From Synechococcus sp. UW140 (GTDB lineage: Bacteria > Cyanobacteriota > Cyanobacteriia > PCC-6307 > Cyanobiaceae): a stretch of 37,388 nucleotides of DNA. Location: positions 1 through 37,388 of the forward strand of contig CAMCQR010000017.1 in the NCBI GenBank assembly GCA_945877115.1, read 5' to 3'. Each line of letters starts with the position of its first letter. The first letter of the stretch is position 1. The notes below the pieces were generated by a model. The model saw only the letters and a list, made by a program, of their open reading frames with translations, made no database searches and was not told the origin of the DNA. The position numbers and the translations under genes are program-made. This document shows, one piece after another, positions 819 to 7,818 of this stretch.

Positions 819-1784
819 ATGTTTTTGGTCCACAACAGCCCACAGCAGGCCCCCCTTCTTGCGGCTGCGATCGCGGGGGCTTGCCGGCTGGAGGGGGGTT
901 GGCCGACGCCCCTGCAACCCCAATTGCTGGAAGTGCTCTTTGAGAACCTGCTCGGTTACAAAGCCGATTTCGACACCCTGGCCCCCGCCCGGGCGGACGA
1001 CGTGGTCGCCGCCCTGCCCTCGCCCGAGCAACGCCATGAGCTGGTGGAGCTGATGGTCCTCATGGAGCTGCTCTGCCGGCCGATTCCCGCCCCCCTGCGC
1101 GAGTCGGTGGAGCGGTGGGCCGCAGACCTGGGTGTGGATGACAATGGCCTACTGCTGGTGCGGGATCTGGCGGCCGATGCCAAAGCCCGCGCCACGGCCG
1201 ACTTCTATCGTCTTAATTGGATTGGCGACGGCGACCCCCAGGACGACCCCCATTTCCAGGAGCTGCTCGCCCATTACGGCACCGCCGCCTACGCCCTCAC
1301 GGTCGAAGCCGACCCCGCCATCAGCGCCCGTTGGCAGGCCCTGGCCAACTGTCCCGCAGGCAGCCTGGGCCTGGCGCTGCACGGCTTTTATCAAGAACGG
1401 GGCTTCTCCCTGCCCGGGGTGGTCGGCGCTGGCAACGAAGCCCTGGCCCATCACGACTGGATCCATGTGATCACGGGTTACGGCACCACCCCCCTTGGTG
1501 AGATGCAAGTCACGGGCTTCATGGCCGCCGCCAGCCCCACCGCCGGCGCCATGCTCGGTTTTCTCGGCGCCGTCTGCATCTTCGAAACGGGTCTGCTACG
1601 CAGTGTCGTTGTCAAGCCTGCCCACCACACTTCCCTGGCTGATGCCGGTACCGCCGAACAGCTCGCCGCCGCCATCGCCCGCGGCAGCCGTTGCAAGGTG
1701 GATCCGCTCGTCGGCATCGACTACTTCAGCATCGCCAACCAACCGCTGGAGACCATCCGCCACGATTGGGGCCTGCTGGATTGA
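819..1784 (+). CDS. TerB-like domain fused to a Coq4-like metal-binding domain
   Basis: This 321-residue protein seems to have two parts. Residues ~8-110 are an all-helical acidic region (LLAAAIAGACRLEGG, LVELMVLMELLCRP) that looks like a TerB/tellurite-resistance-type helical bundle. Residues ~120-321 resemble Coq4: they contain HDWIH with its first His at residue 212, then exactly eleven residues and Glu228, giving the HDxxHx11E signature that binds zinc in Coq4 proteins. The following segment GYGTTPLGEMQ also fits Coq4. In eukaryotes and proteobacteria Coq4 belongs to ubiquinone synthesis, whereas cyanobacteria make plastoquinone, so the role here is unknown; a lipid or quinone-related scaffold or enzyme is inference. 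The gene stands alone upstream of a DUF1348 gene on the same strand, 92 bases apart. The Coq4-like part is well supported, the TerB-like part less so. Confidence 0.72.
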   Translation: MFLVHNSPQQAPLLAAAIAGACRLEGGWPTPLQPQLLEVLFENLLGYKADFDTLAPARADDVVAALPSPEQRHELVELMVLMELLCRPIPAPLRESVERWAADLGVDDNGLLLVRDLAADAKARATADFYRLNWIGDGDPQDDPHFQELLAHYGTAAYALTVEADPAISARWQALANCPAGSLGLALHGFYQERGFSLPGVVGAGNEALAHHDWIHVITGYGTTPLGEMQVTGFMAAASPTAGAMLGFLGAVCIFETGLLRSVVVKPAHHTSLADAGTAEQLAAAIARGSRCKVDPLVGIDYFSIANQPLETIRHDWGLLD

Positions 1785-2377: not shown

Positions 2378-3623
2378 CTCGGCGTCCCAGCATCGCTTCC
2401 AAGCGATCGGCCAGGGCAGTGGCGATCACCCCTTTACCTTGGACCCGTTGGGCCCCCTTGGCATCAACAATCCAGGCCGTTTGCTCCTCCCCCTGGACCT
2501 CTTCGGCCCGGTTGGCCACCACCAGTTGGCTGGCTCCGAGCCGGCGGCGGGCCGTGGCGATGAGTTCTTCGGTGGACACCCCCTGCATCACCTTGAAGGA
2601 CACCATCACCAAATCTGGATCCGCCGCCCGCACCGCATCAATCACCTTTTCGGTCGGCTCCAGGGCCAGGTCGAGGTGGCCAAGGCCGCTGGCGATCTTG
2701 CCGGCGACGGGGTGCCTGGGACGGTAGTCGGCCACCGCCGCACTGAAAATCCCCGCCTCCAGGCCTTCGGCCACCGCCTCCAGGGTCAGCCGCCGGTAGT
2801 CGTCATAGGTGGCCGCCAGCGTGCACGGCAACCAGGAGGGGGGCCGCCAACCGCCATCCCCCAACACGAAACGCACCTCGGCACCGCGCAGCACCAGCTC
2901 TTCGGTGATCGCTGCACCCAACCGGCCGCGAAAGCGGTTGACGATGGCGCGGACGCCATCGAGGGGCACCGGCGTCGGACCGCCGGTCACCAGCAGACGC
3001 CGTCCCGCCAGGGCACTGGCCGAAACGGCCCGACACACCGCCGCCACCAGCACCTCCGCCGCCGGCAGATTGTGTTTGCCGTAGGCATCGCGAGGGGCGA
3101 TGAAGCGCACCCCCAGCTCCTGCAACAGGCGGCCATTGCGTTCCAGCAGCGCTGTATGCAACGAGCCATGCATCGTCGGCGCCACCAGAACCTGGGTGCG
3201 CCCCTGGCCCAGGCGACCCAGGGCGGAAGCCAGCGCCGCCGTCACCACCGTGTCCGCTACCCCGGCGGCCATCTTGCCGATGGTGTTGTAAGTCGCCGGC
3301 GCCACCAGCCAGGCATCAAACGGCTCACTGTCGCTGAGGTGTTCGGCCCGCCAACTCAGGTCACGGATCACCGGCTGTTCGCACGCCCATTCCAGAGCCT
3401 CAAGGCCCACATAGCGCAGGGCCTCCTGGCTGCAGAAGGCTGTCACCTGCGCCCCGCGGCGCCGCAGGGCCCGGGCCAGTTCGGGAGCTTTCAGGGCCGC
3501 AATGCCGCCGCAGACCATCAAAGCGACGCGCCGGCCCTGCAGGTGGCGCGACAGCAAGGGGACCTCATGGTCCCCCAACAGCGGCGAGCGGGGCGGGCTC
3601 CAGTCCCAGTCGGCGAAACTCAC
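2358..3623 (-). CDS. coaBC: Divergent CoaBC-like flavoprotein (phosphopantothenoylcysteine decarboxylase/phosphopantothenate-cysteine ligase family)
   Basis: The 421-residue protein has the CoaC-CoaB two-domain layout of coenzyme A synthesis. The N-terminal flavin domain shows [16 protein letters not shown] (~38-53), His95 and [11 protein letters not shown] (~108-118, the PASANT-type motif). The C-terminal domain shows [18 protein letters not shown] (~212-229, Asn229 kept), AAVADYRP (295-302) and Lys309. Odd points: the PxMNxxMW motif reads PTMHGSLH (149-156), the Cys-containing loop of the decarboxylase reads AYGKHNL (180-186) without cysteine, and SSGKMG is replaced by FRGRLG. The ligase tail ([14 protein letters not shown]) resembles stand-alone CoaB forms. 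Translation starts with GTG, overlapping the P450 stop by four bases (GTGA), which implies coupling. It may be the organism's CoaBC or a paralogue with another substrate. Confidence 0.75.
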
Positions 3624-5077
3624 AGGGTCTGGGTGGGGGCGACCGCCCGCTGGCGTGCCACACGCCGCAACCGCACCGGGGCCCCATGGCCCAGGGTCAC
3701 CCCCCGCCGCGCCTGGGGCACCGCCCGGGAATTGGCCGAAGCAAAGTCCATCTCACCCAACACCGTCGCCAGCACAAGCTTCAGTTCCATCTGGGCCAGG
3801 GCAGCGCCAACACAGCGACGCACCCCGGCCCCAAATGGCATGTATTCATAGGGACTAAACTGCCGCTCCAGAAACCGTTCTGGCCGAAAGTGCTGCGGTT
3901 CGGGATAGAGGTCAGGCCGCAGATGCAACAGGTAAATACAGGCCATCAACAGGTCGCCTGGTTCGTAGCACTGGCCCCCCAGTTCCACGGGCGTTTGCAC
4001 CTGGCGCGCAAAACTCAGCATGGCCACGGGATGCAACCGCAAGGTTTCCTGACCAACAGCCGTGAGATAGGGCAACTTCATCGGATCCGCCCCGACCCCG
4101 GCCCCATCAAGCTCGGAGCGCAGGCGCTCGAGGGCGTGGGGGGTGCGGTGCAACCAGTACAACGCCGCCGTCAAGGCCGTGGCCGTTGTCTCGTGACCCG
4201 CCACCAGCAAGGTCATCAACTCATCACGCACATCGACATCGCTGAGGGGTTCGCCGGCTTCGTCGCGGGCCTCCAGCAACATCGAAAGCACATCAAACCG
4301 ATCGCCATGGGGCTGGGCCCGGCGCTCGGCAATCATGGCGTAGAGCAAATCGTCGGTCTGTTGCGCCAATTGATTGATGCGACGGCCTGGACTGAGCGGG
4401 CCCAGATCCTTCTGCAGCCAAGGGAAAAACAACACCGCCGAGGTTAAGGGTGTGGCCGTCATCCCCAGGCGGCGGGTCAGCAGGGCCTCCAGTTCGCCGT
4501 GGCGCTCCCGTTGCCCCAAGCCAAAGACCACCTCCAGGATCACGCCCATACTGATGCGCTGCATCGCCTCCCGCACGGAAATCTCTCCCTGCTGCGGCCA
4601 GGTGGCCATTTCCTCGCGCGTGATTCGTTCAATCAGGCGCCCATAGTTCTGGAGGTGCTCGCCATGGAAACGGGGCATCACCAGTTGGCGGCGATGGCGA
4701 TGCGAAATACCGCTCAACAGAATCGTGTTGCGGACACCGAGCATGGGAGAAAGCAACAGATTGAGTTCGCCCGGAGAACTGAATTCACTACCGGTATCGC
4801 GACTCATCAAGGCCTGAAGGGTCCTGGGTTCACTGAGCAGAAACACCGGGCCGGTGCCCATGGCACTGCCAAAGACAGACACCTGGAAGCTGTCCTTGCC
4901 ACGGCGCGACTGGGCCTGCATGAAGCCGGTGGGGTCGAGGATCCAGCGGGCCAGCTCCCAGCTACGCCGCAACGGTGATGGCGACACGAGTCCAGGTCGC
5001 CCAGGAGGAATTGAGCCATTGAACGGGCTCGCCACTCCAGGGCTACCCCCATCAACGGACGCGGCAGTTCGGGTCAT
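3620..5077 (-). CDS. Cytochrome P450, bacterial CYP110-like
   Basis: All P450 landmarks are present. Numbering from the ATG at 5077 (485 residues), the I-helix oxygen-binding motif AGHETT lies at 293-298, the K-helix ExxR (ETLR) at 344-347, and the heme loop FGAGVRRCVG has its cysteine ligand at 422. The proline-rich entry IPPGRPGLVSPSP near residue 23 is typical of cyanobacterial CYP110-type enzymes. The frame is open further upstream to 5272, but that would run into pepN; the 5077 start leaves 50 bases after the pepN stop and a normal family length. No N-terminal membrane anchor is evident. The substrate is unknown; relatives act on fatty acids or terpenoids. Together with the GTGA-coupled CoaBC-like gene it forms the tail of a pepN-headed operon. 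Confidence 0.92.
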   Translation of the reverse strand: MTRTAASVDGGSPGVASPFNGSIPPGRPGLVSPSPLRRSWELARWILDPTGFMQAQSRRGKDSFQVSVFGSAMGTGPVFLLSEPRTLQALMSRDTGSEFSSPGELNLLLSPMLGVRNTILLSGISHRHRRQLVMPRFHGEHLQNYGRLIERITREEMATWPQQGEISVREAMQRISMGVILEVVFGLGQRERHGELEALLTRRLGMTATPLTSAVLFFPWLQKDLGPLSPGRRINQLAQQTDDLLYAMIAERRAQPHGDRFDVLSMLLEARDEAGEPLSDVDVRDELMTLLVAGHETTATALTAALYWLHRTPHALERLRSELDGAGVGADPMKLPYLTAVGQETLRLHPVAMLSFARQVQTPVELGGQCYEPGDLLMACIYLLHLRPDLYPEPQHFRPERFLERQFSPYEYMPFGAGVRRCVGAALAQMELKLVLATVLGEMDFASANSRAVPQARRGVTLGHGAPVRLRRVARQRAVAPTQTL

Positions 5078-5127
5078 GGCGCAGGAGCCCAGCGTGGCCC
5101 AAAAGCTAGCCCGATCCTCGCGGACCT

Positions 5128-7818
5128 TTAGATCGGCAGCCCCAGACATTGCCCAACCACCTCCCGGCTGTTCTCTGACAATCCGGGCAGGGACGCCAGC
5201 CCATGGAGAGCCAAGCCCATCGCCTGCCGACGGCTGGGGCCGTAGCACTGCCAACGGCTGAAGATTTTGCATAGCCGGGCCGCCGTGATCGGATTGCGCT
5301 GATCGAGAAGCCCAATCTGCTCCGCCAGAAAGCGGTAACCCGAGCCGTCCACCGCATGGAAGACCACCACATTGGCGGCCAGTCCCCCCAATACCGCCCG
5401 CACCGAATTGGGTGCCATCGGGTCATAGCGGGGATGGTCAAGCAGCCTTTGCACCCGCTCAAGACCATCATCAAAGGGAGCCGAAGCCTCCAGGGCAAAC
5501 CAGGCATCGAGAATCACCGGGCGGTCCTGCCAGCGCCCGTAAAAAGCATCGAGGGCGGCCTGACGCTCTGCCAGAGGCTGGGTCTGCAGGGCCGCGAGCC
5601 CGGCCCGGGCCAGGGTCATTGAGGGCCCGTCCACGGCGGCGCGGGCCGCCGTAATGGCGGCCGGATCGCCTGCCGCCACAAGCCATTTCCAGATTTGTCC
5701 ACTCAAAAGGCGATCGCCGCAGCCCTCGGGCCAGGGCAAGTCCCACTGCCCCTGGCAACGGACCAGGGCCAGGCGCAAGGGTTCGGTCAACACCTCACCC
5801 AAACGACGTCGCATAGCCTCCACGGCCCAATAGAAGGCCGGTGGATCCGGTTCAACCACACCCTCCTCCAACTCCGGTAAGGCCGGCAAGGCCATCAGGG
5901 CACTGCGGCTGGCCTCCGAAAGGGTGGGGTCCGCCAGAATGCGGCCGAAAGCCTCAATCAACTCATCCTCTAACAAACCATCAGGGCGTCCCTGGGCCCG
6001 CCGCACCAGCGCCCGCCGCATCAGCTCCTGCCCCGCATCCCAGCGGGCAAACGGATCGCTGTCATGGGCAAACAGGTGGACCAATTCGCGTACTGGTCTT
6101 CCGATTTGCAACCGCACGGGGGCCGAAAAATGGCGCAGCAGGGACAGGGCTGGAGGTTGGGCCTGGTTCGGCAGGCCCTTAAGGACCAGGGTCTGTTCCG
6201 CTTGGTCGATCACCACCACCTTGGTGCAACGCCCCCAGTCTCGATCTGGGGCGGGTGCCACCGCCGGGACTTCGGATCCAGATCCAAACTGAATGGGCTG
6301 ATCCCGCCCCGATTGATCCACCAGGCCCATGGCCAACGGGATCACAAGGGGCTGTTTCAACGGCTGGCCCGGCGTCTGAGGCGTTTGCTGGGAGATCGTC
6401 AGCTCCAGGGTTCCCTTATGGCGGTTCCAGCGCCGTCTGACGCGCAGCAGGGGGGTGCCGGCCTGGCTATACCAAAGGCGGAACTGTTCAAAGTCAAAAG
6501 CCAAATGCGAATCAGCCGCTCCATCGCGCATGGCGGCCAGAAAATCATCGATGGTCGCTGCTGAACCATCATGGCGCTCAACGTAAAGAGCCATGCCCTT
6601 AAAAAATGTCTCATGCCCCAAAAGGGTTTGCAAAGCCCGAATTAACTCAGAGCCTTTTTCGTAGATGGTGGTGGTATAAAAATTATCGATTGCCTGATAA
6701 TGATCCGGTTGTACAGCATGGGCCGTTGGCCCGGAATCCTCCCGAAACTGAGTGTTACGTAAAAAAGCAACATTCTCGATACGATTTAGGGAGTGACCAT
6801 GGAAATCTGCACTGAAACATTGGTCTCTGAAAACGGTCAGGCCCTCCTTGAGTGATAACTGAAACCAATCGCGACAGGTGATCCGATTACCTGTCCAATT
6901 ATGAAAATACTCATGGGCAATCACACTTTCAACCCGCTCTAACTCTGCATCTGTAGCCGTTTCGGCGTCAGCCAGCACTAACTTGGAATTAAAGATATTC
7001 AGACTCTTGTTCTCCATAGCGCCCATGTTGAAGTGACGCACAGCAACGATATTGAATTCTTTTAGGTCGTACTCCAGCCCATAGACCTGCTCATCCCATG
7101 CCATGCATCGCTTCAAGCTCGCCATGGCATGGGCCGTCAAAGGTGCATCCCCAGGCTCGACATGGAGCCGCAAGCGCACCTCACGCCCACTGGCTGTAAG
7201 GAAGGCACCCGTCACCTCCTCCAGCTGGCCAGCCACGAGGGCAAACAAATAGGAGGGTTTGGGGAAAGGGTCATCCCAAACGGTGTAGTGCCGGGCGCGG
7301 CCATCGTCTCCAGGGGGCAAGGGGCCCGCATCCACCCCATTGCCATTGGAGAGCAACACCGGATAGCGCTCCCGATCGGCCTCAACCCGCACCCGGAAAC
7401 AACTGAGCACATCGGGCCGATCCGGATGGAAGGTGATGCGGCGAAAGCCCTCCGCTTCGCACTGGGTTGTCACCATCCCGCCACTGCCGTAGAGGCCCTC
7501 CAGGCTGGTGTTGGCTTGGGGCTCAAGCCGCACCAGGGTCCGCAGCACAAACGGAGCTTGGGGTGGATTCAGCAGGGTTAGGCCAATGGCCGTATGGCGA
7601 TAGCCCTGGGGTGCCAAGGGCAGTCCATCCTGGCTGATCCCCAACAATTCCAAGCCGAGACCCTGCAACTCCAGGGGCCCAGAGGCTCCAGGGGTCGCCG
7701 GCTCCAGGGACAACTCCGCCTCCACAAAGGCGACATCCCCTTCCAGCCGCACCGACAGGTCGGTGCGGCTAAGCCGGTAGGGATAGGGGCGGTAATTGGC
7801 GAGGTAGACGGCGTCCAT
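5128..7818 (-). CDS. pepN: Aminopeptidase N, M1 family zinc metallopeptidase
   Basis: The 896-residue length matches bacterial PepN, which removes N-terminal residues from peptides in the cytoplasm. The exopeptidase motif GAMEN is at 266-270, the zinc site HEYFH at 302-306, and the third ligand Glu325 lies in LKEGLT, giving HExxH-x18-E exactly. A conserved NWTGNRITCRDWFQLSLKEG stretch surrounds it. The C-terminal half is the helical bowl domain of the DUF3458 type. The start ATG gives MDAVYLANYRPYPY, consistent with the family's N-terminal beta domain. The secreted-protein gene lies only 12 bases upstream and the P450 follows 50 bases downstream, suggesting one transcription unit. Nothing looks defective. 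Confidence 0.97.
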   Translation of the reverse strand: MDAVYLANYRPYPYRLSRTDLSVRLEGDVAFVEAELSLEPATPGASGPLELQGLGLELLGISQDGLPLAPQGYRHTAIGLTLLNPPQAPFVLRTLVRLEPQANTSLEGLYGSGGMVTTQCEAEGFRRITFHPDRPDVLSCFRVRVEADRERYPVLLSNGNGVDAGPLPPGDDGRARHYTVWDDPFPKPSYLFALVAGQLEEVTGAFLTASGREVRLRLHVEPGDAPLTAHAMASLKRCMAWDEQVYGLEYDLKEFNIVAVRHFNMGAMENKSLNIFNSKLVLADAETATDAELERVESVIAHEYFHNWTGNRITCRDWFQLSLKEGLTVFRDQCFSADFHGHSLNRIENVAFLRNTQFREDSGPTAHAVQPDHYQAIDNFYTTTIYEKGSELIRALQTLLGHETFFKGMALYVERHDGSAATIDDFLAAMRDGAADSHLAFDFEQFRLWYSQAGTPLLRVRRRWNRHKGTLELTISQQTPQTPGQPLKQPLVIPLAMGLVDQSGRDQPIQFGSGSEVPAVAPAPDRDWGRCTKVVVIDQAEQTLVLKGLPNQAQPPALSLLRHFSAPVRLQIGRPVRELVHLFAHDSDPFARWDAGQELMRRALVRRAQGRPDGLLEDELIEAFGRILADPTLSEASRSALMALPALPELEEGVVEPDPPAFYWAVEAMRRRLGEVLTEPLRLALVRCQGQWDLPWPEGCGDRLLSGQIWKWLVAAGDPAAITAARAAVDGPSMTLARAGLAALQTQPLAERQAALDAFYGRWQDRPVILDAWFALEASAPFDDGLERVQRLLDHPRYDPMAPNSVRAVLGGLAANVVVFHAVDGSGYRFLAEQIGLLDQRNPITAARLCKIFSRWQCYGPSRRQAMGLALHGLASLPGLSENSREVVGQCLGLPI

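Follow-up and report, generated by a model that had tools for sequence, protein, structure and literature searches.

A fusion of a TerB-type helical domain with a Coq4-type core bearing an intact metal motif in Synechococcus sp. UW140

Coq4 has long been regarded as an organiser within the CoQ complex of yeast, and for as long it was a CoQ protein without known activity. In TerB domains, acidic residues bind metal. Ancestrally reconstructed animal COQ4 is described as a Zn-dependent C1 decarboxylase of a CoQ precursor, with mutants of its metal motif being inactive (PMC7615680, in the available part of the paper), while a review credits human COQ4 with a one-step oxidative decarboxylation in addition to a proposed structural role (PMC11495197, in the accessible excerpt). 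The first Coq4 structure is that of Nostoc Alr8543, which holds Mg2+ at the motif together with a bound lipid (PMC9774615, likewise in extract).

The gene analyzed here is found near the start of a contig of Synechococcus sp. UW140 whose whole stretch of 37,388 nucleotides is referred to as the window. Comparison shows that the encoded protein combines a helical domain of TerB type with a Coq4-type core that retains an intact metal motif, and among the open-licence papers searched we found no description of such a TerB–Coq4 fusion. The domain limits are corrected here from the earlier division into residues 1-115 and 120-321 to a TerB domain of about 1-125, a linker of about 126-167 and a Coq4 core of about 168-321, as follows:

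819..1784, + strand: TerB–Coq4 fusion gene, an open reading frame (ORF) with an ATG start, 321 aa, with full-length homologues known
819..1193, + strand: N-terminal TerB-type helical domain, approximately residues 1-125, acidic motifs degenerate
894..917, + strand: site of the first ADG...E motif in TerB, residues 26-33, here G26...Q33
1074..1097, + strand: site of the second ADG...E motif in TerB, residues 86-93, here C86...L93
1194..1319, + strand: linker, approximately residues 126-167, in which D128 and R131 hardly vary
1320..1781, + strand: C-terminal Coq4-type core, approximately residues 168-321
1452..1502, + strand: metal signature H212-D213-x2-H216-x11-E228, an exact motif aligning with the HDxxH...E of 3msq and 6e12

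The ORF at 819-1784 is a genuine gene and appears to be under purifying selection. The same start methionine is present in orthologues of about 60% identity and, between the orthologues L002 and L004, divergence is 0.113, 0.087 and 0.294 at codon positions 1, 2 and 3, respectively, which is the pattern expected when selection preserves the protein.

The exact HDxxHx11E reported in the preliminary description, from His212 to Glu228, is indeed present at residues 212-228 (H212, D213, H216 and E228). When the window protein was shuffled 100,000 times, the pattern HD..H.{11}E arose in 117 cases, or about 0.1%. The motif is kept in 43/43 full-length fused proteins, the window protein counted; these were gathered by the family's own profile, are distinct in their last 230 residues and include close kin, and one of them (L006) is truncated at a contig end. 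Outside the fusion, the x11 spacing occurs in all but one of 20 canonical Coq4 proteins, the exception having a spacing within 10-13, and in 8/8 short Coq4-like proteins. As far as these sequences indicate, HDxxHx11E is a property of the wider Coq4 group and is not peculiar to the fusion.

Neither half of the protein is recognized by Pfam at its cut-offs, whereas both are by profile-profile comparison. Pfam Coq4 (PF05019) gives E 0.0045 and 16.7 bits with the whole protein and E 0.00085 and 19.1 bits with residues 121-321, both below the curated gathering cut-off of 22.9, and residues 1-120 match no Pfam family, TerB (PF05099) included. Scans of the fusion protein against NCBIfam, Pfam and PHROGs returned sub-threshold or spurious matches only; those to ArsN2 (E 0.0023), DprA_N (E 0.13, C-terminal part) and phrog_26908 (E 0.34) are weak and were set aside as chance. 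By HHalign, the C-domain scores 99.1% against canonical Coq4 and the N-domain 98.4% against the TerB part of proteins that combine TerB with a Mo-nitro_C domain, the four cross pairs giving 0.1-0.9%. In addition, a 17-row family profile compared with PDB sequences finds the Coq4 entries 3msq (4e-10) and 6e12 (1.2e-7) with its C-terminal half, the HDxxH...E columns being aligned with those of both entries.

The same relationship is seen in the predicted structure. The full-length AlphaFold2 model, built from seven rows, is of moderate quality (mean pLDDT 70.9, pTM 0.51). By structure alignment (VIA), its residues 168-321 match Alr8543 (6e12_B) with Z 11.0 over 135 residues at rmsd 4.1, and the model matches 3msq with Z 9.3 over 169 residues at rmsd 5.2, the next chain scoring 4.9. 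Foldseek, run with the whole model, also lists Coq4 entries first, with E from 3.1e-4 (6e12) to 6.7e-4 at low TM (0.32/0.46). As regards the N-terminal helices that precede the SLG motif in canonical Coq4, the HHalign match starts at residue 173, which pairs with column 94 of the alignment of canonical Coq4, and the linker before it is poorly predicted (pLDDT <50 at 120-141 and 152-161 of the full-length model); the untrimmed structure alignment with 3msq covers residues 30-321 of the model. Within the linker, D128 is conserved in 42/43 and R131 in 43/43 fused proteins, again counting the window protein. On the strength of the model, the C-terminal domain is predicted to have the Coq4 fold, as its earlier designation as Coq4-like had it.

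The N-terminal domain reads in a similar way. L019, a distant full-length relative, reaches 19.5 bits with Pfam TerB against a cut-off of 24.4, and the N-terminal third of the 17-row profile matches the TerB-type entry 2ou3 at E 0.08, which is not significant alone. When modelled alone (AF2, six rows), the N-domain is predicted with pLDDT 91.7 and pTM 0.85; in VIA it matches 2ou3 along 122 residues (Z 12.7, rmsd 2.7) and 2h5n with Z 8.2, the next unrelated row scoring 5.1, bearing in mind that helical proteins with Z below about 13 may share merely a common arrangement. Foldseek ranks 2ou3 first (E 0.23, probability 0.97) and 2h5n second (E 0.58). Since profile and structure converge on a single entry, 2ou3, the modelled N-terminal domain is taken to have the TerB helical fold, which agrees with its description as TerB-like.

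On the other hand, the tie to metal or stress response that the preliminary description attached to this half is weakened. At the ADG...E positions, D, E, D/N and E are found in 8/8 cyanobacterial TerB+Mo-nitro_C proteins (the second motif starting with D in six and N in two, and ending with E in all eight), whereas the window protein has G26, Q33, C86 and L93. Among 31 fused proteins in a joint alignment, D26 is found in 2, E33 in 3, D86 in 6, E86 in 9 and E93 in 0; a second alignment with all 43 gives D26 in 3, E26 in 4, E33 in 3, D86 in 7, E86 in 15 and E93 in none. By these alignments, three of the four TerB acidic positions are gone almost family-wide, while position 86 is acidic in about half. 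As 15/31 fused relatives are acidic there, the loss is fuller in the window protein than in the family as a whole, and with all of its acidic ADG...E positions missing, TerB-type metal binding by its N-domain appears unlikely.

In order to place the fusion among its relatives, a C-domain tree of 59 rows was used, comprising 31 fused proteins (of the 43 read), 20 canonical Coq4 proteins and 8 short ones. The fused proteins fall on one side of a branch with support 96/86, which recurs in 94% of the 200 bootstrap replicates; canonical Coq4 lies on one side of another branch (98/87). Six of the eight short proteins group on the canonical side, L087 falls with the canonical proteins, and L082, on a long branch, with the fused ones. 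The 31 fused proteins thus form one group in this sequence tree, a distinct TerB–Coq4 family.

The family is found mostly in small-genome cyanobacteria. In a draw of genomes from the phylum, at least 19/386 have a match over at least 250 profile positions, at least 17 of them in the window's own family (f1), which we take to be the picocyanobacterial one, as the Synechococcus record titles agree; scoring was limited to five candidates per genome, which makes the counts lower bounds. G050 and G289 are the fusion-bearing genomes outside f1 in this draw, and G041 is a third outside f1. Up to three fused copies were seen per genome, with some f1 genomes holding two or three. The window-type gene itself is patchy, occurring in 6/37 genomes of the genus, the window's genome (G000) included, and its copy in G032 is apparently split across two contigs. 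A window-type fragment of 49% identity, spanning residues 46-141 and containing a stop codon (L009, G015:C42:3329-3616), falls outside the 6/37 count and is possibly a decaying copy.

A profile search of genome contigs with a four-row alignment gave seven loci with close orthologues, five titled as Synechococcus or cyanobacteria, one as Bifidobacterium breve and one as Hyphomicrobiales. The gene in the “Bifidobacterium breve”-titled genome has the same place and score as in G021 of the window's genus. Among plasmid records, neither the window protein nor the L007 protein had a match. In cyanobacterial genomes, the family profile also finds each half alone, namely Coq4 proteins and proteins matching about the first 125 positions.

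The preliminary description had regarded a Coq4 as out of place in a cyanobacterium, which does not agree with its distribution. PF05019 is above its cut-off in 43/60 related genomes, the window's own included (G000:C73, 62.1 bits), as well as in Synechococcus elongatus, used as a control, and Alr8543 is itself a Nostoc protein (PMC9774615, as given in the available extract). A Coq4 in a cyanobacterium is therefore ordinary. In the same 60 genomes, TIGR00148, presumably the UbiD family, is present in 59, in 58 of them above cut-off and with G000 included, so that the decarboxylation step of plastoquinone synthesis is probably already covered by UbiD without the fusion protein. This bears on the proposal that the fusion provides C1 decarboxylation or hydroxylation on the route to plastoquinone, in the way that COQ4 serves ubiquinone synthesis. 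Motif and fold are the same as in COQ4, and the animal enzyme carries out such a step (PMC7615680, available part), but with TIGR00148 so widespread, a window-type gene in 6/37 genomes of the genus and full-length fusions in at least 19/386 genomes of the phylum, we regard it as very improbable. As UbiD is nearly universal here, a role outside core quinone synthesis is our best guess.

We also compared the genomic surroundings of the gene. The survey of neighbours that the preliminary description proposed yielded none in common: when all window ORFs of at least 60 aa were compared with 36 loci, no shared neighbour was found near the fusion gene, the matches being the gene itself, overlapping frames and one ORF 7 kb off (27-36% identity, 3 loci). 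The annotated features around it are:

36-416: sub-cut-off match to the C-terminal part (609-724 of 724) of the profile for adenosylcobalamin-dependent ribonucleoside-triphosphate reductase, at the contig start and perhaps truncated by the contig edge
1877-2377, + strand: DUF1348 gene (PF07080, 224.4 bits), directly downstream of the fusion gene and not common to the orthologue loci compared
3620-5272, - strand: cytochrome P450-type gene, flanked by a CoaBC-like ORF and aminopeptidase N; a RiPP P450 is its top NCBIfam match, with a score far short of the cut-off

Some relatives do have recurrent neighbours. The loci L111, L112, L114 and L117 have in common outer-membrane-type, APH-type kinase and PspA-type genes, which the window does not have. 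In a sister subfamily (L126-L132 and L135; eight genomes of one genus, all close kin), a peroxidase, presumably KatG, and a glutaredoxin accompany the fusion in 8/8 loci, a DUF1971 gene and a sigma-70-type factor in 7/8, and a glyoxalase-type gene is also nearby. None of six stress-type neighbour proteins of this subfamily matches the window, while such a peroxidase gene is found about 2.7 kb downstream at L114, a window-type orthologue locus. Because the redox-stress neighbourhood belongs to the sister subfamily and to eight genomes of a single genus, it says little about the window gene.

A tailoring role in clusters for RiPPs or other secondary metabolites was likewise weighed against these surroundings. 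A prochlorosin-type cluster of marine Synechococcus holds a gene labelled ‘Coq4’ (PMC10783134, in a figure legend), and the contig of the Hyphomicrobiales-titled orthologue (L113/L140) carries an asparagine-synthase gene with a weak lasso-cyclase match as well as an NTP_transf_5 gene. However, LanM (TIGR03897), the cluster marker used, is above cut-off in 6 of the 19 fusion-bearing genomes searched; in three of these six it is on a separate contig and in the other three it lies about 15 kb away (G423) or much farther. Furthermore, the annotated window neighbours (DUF1348, CoaBC-like, P450, aminopeptidase N) resemble general metabolism. A link to lanthipeptide clusters is not supported by the placement of LanM, and a tailoring function seems very improbable.

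In the MAG titled Hyphomicrobiales (G431), a TerB–Coq4 orthologue stands beside fhcA (L113:6306-8963, contig RXIY01000006.1; L140:15205-17862). It starts 42 bases after the gene for formylmethanofuran dehydrogenase subunit A (TIGR03121, 581.8 bits) on the same strand and stops 226 bases short of the end of the contig. The best matches of this fhcA among plasmid records are from Methylocystis (74-76%), and a second gene for the same subunit is on a different contig of the MAG. PF05019 has no match in G431, and TIGR03121 is above cut-off in 0/42 genomes of the window's genus. In the C-domain tree, the L113 fusion protein nests among cyanobacterial ones (99/93), so the copy reflects either horizontal transfer or a chimeric contig.

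Taken together, the fusion protein is best explained as a Coq4-fold metal-dependent enzyme or lipid-binding metalloprotein that acts, outside core plastoquinone synthesis, on a lipid of aromatic or isoprenoid type and docks through a degenerate TerB domain, a reading to which we give a probability of roughly 0.5. By analogy with the Coq4 literature, the HDxxHx11E site would bind a divalent metal (Zn2+ or Mg2+) beside a lipid pocket. The reaction might be (de)carboxylase-like or related metal-dependent catalysis, and the aromatic or isoprenoid lipid acted on would differ from the main plastoquinone precursor. The TerB domain, without its usual metal binding, would mediate docking or oligomerisation, perhaps as part of a response to redox or membrane stress. 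This reading is favoured because the metal motif and R131 are invariant in the 43 fused proteins, D128 is kept in all but one and the predicted fold resembles Alr8543 (Z 11.0); because COQ4 catalysis depends on the motif (PMC7615680) and Alr8543 holds both metal and lipid (PMC9774615), each as stated in the available part of the source; and because the TerB acidic motifs are lost, UbiD is widespread, and stress-type neighbours are present in the sister subfamily and at L114. Against it, the window gene has no conserved neighbour, its distribution is patchy and the full-length model is moderate.

The preliminary description had suggested a quinone or lipid scaffold outside ubiquinone synthesis. 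The outside role agrees with our best guess, while a pure scaffold is less likely because of the metal motif in 43/43 fused proteins. In its strict form, a scaffold or lipid carrier without catalysis would hold a quinone or isoprenoid in the Coq4 fold, with the TerB domain attracting partners. An organising role in the CoQ complex has been proposed for Coq4 (PMC11495197) and crystals of Alr8543 held bound lipid (PMC9774615), both according to the accessible excerpts, and a TerB-type domain lacking its acidic residues would fit protein contacts; with the motif so strictly kept and COQ4 catalysis shown to need it (PMC7615680, available part), we consider a non-catalytic protein the less likely but still a serious alternative. 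The conservation pattern thus points to an active metal site sooner than to a pure scaffold, while conservation alone proves no catalysis. A more far-reaching version of the preferred metalloenzyme reading is doubtful: a new type of metal enzyme in small-genome cyanobacteria, that is, a Coq4-fold (oxidative) decarboxylase-like protein whose substrate is not a precursor of plastoquinone or ubiquinone, coupled to redox stress by a worn TerB domain and passed also to a methylotroph-like alphaproteobacterium.

The activity now assigned to Coq4, C1 decarboxylation, is the very step for which cyanobacteria appear to use UbiD, and yet this CoQ protein occurs in 43 of the 60 related genomes. The substrate of the fusion would reveal the task of the Coq4 fold in organisms that make no ubiquinone, and so perhaps its original chemistry. 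In turn, the degenerate TerB half offers a clean test of whether TerB domains act via metal binding or via protein contact.

Four known systems are closest to the fusion. Canonical Coq4 (PF05019; Alr8543 6e12 and Npun 3msq) is alike in the predicted fold of residues 168-321 or thereabouts and in the HDxxHx11E, SLG, GE..F and PL..R motifs, whereas the fusion is below the Pfam cut-off, has a TerB domain and linker preceding the core and forms a separate group in the tree (96/86). The short cyanobacterial Coq4-like proteins (about 160-200 aa) have the HDxxHx11E core in common with it (8/8), but not the TerB domain or the long N-terminal part. The TerB family (PF05099, COG3793; Nostoc 2ou3 and Porphyromonas PG1108 2h5n, the latter titled ‘unknown function’) resembles residues 1-125 in fold and profile; unlike it, the fusion has no Pfam TerB match and no acidic ADG...E motifs, and is joined to Coq4. 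Finally, the cyanobacterial TerB+Mo-nitro_C proteins (PF05099 + PF06967; L091-L098) number eight, are 213-248 aa in length and show both Pfam domains above cut-off in 5/5 scanned, with TerB joined to a domain named after nitrogenase. They are the nearest N-domain relatives found without Coq4, and differ from the fusion in having Mo-nitro_C instead of Coq4 as the C-terminal partner and in retaining the acidic motifs.
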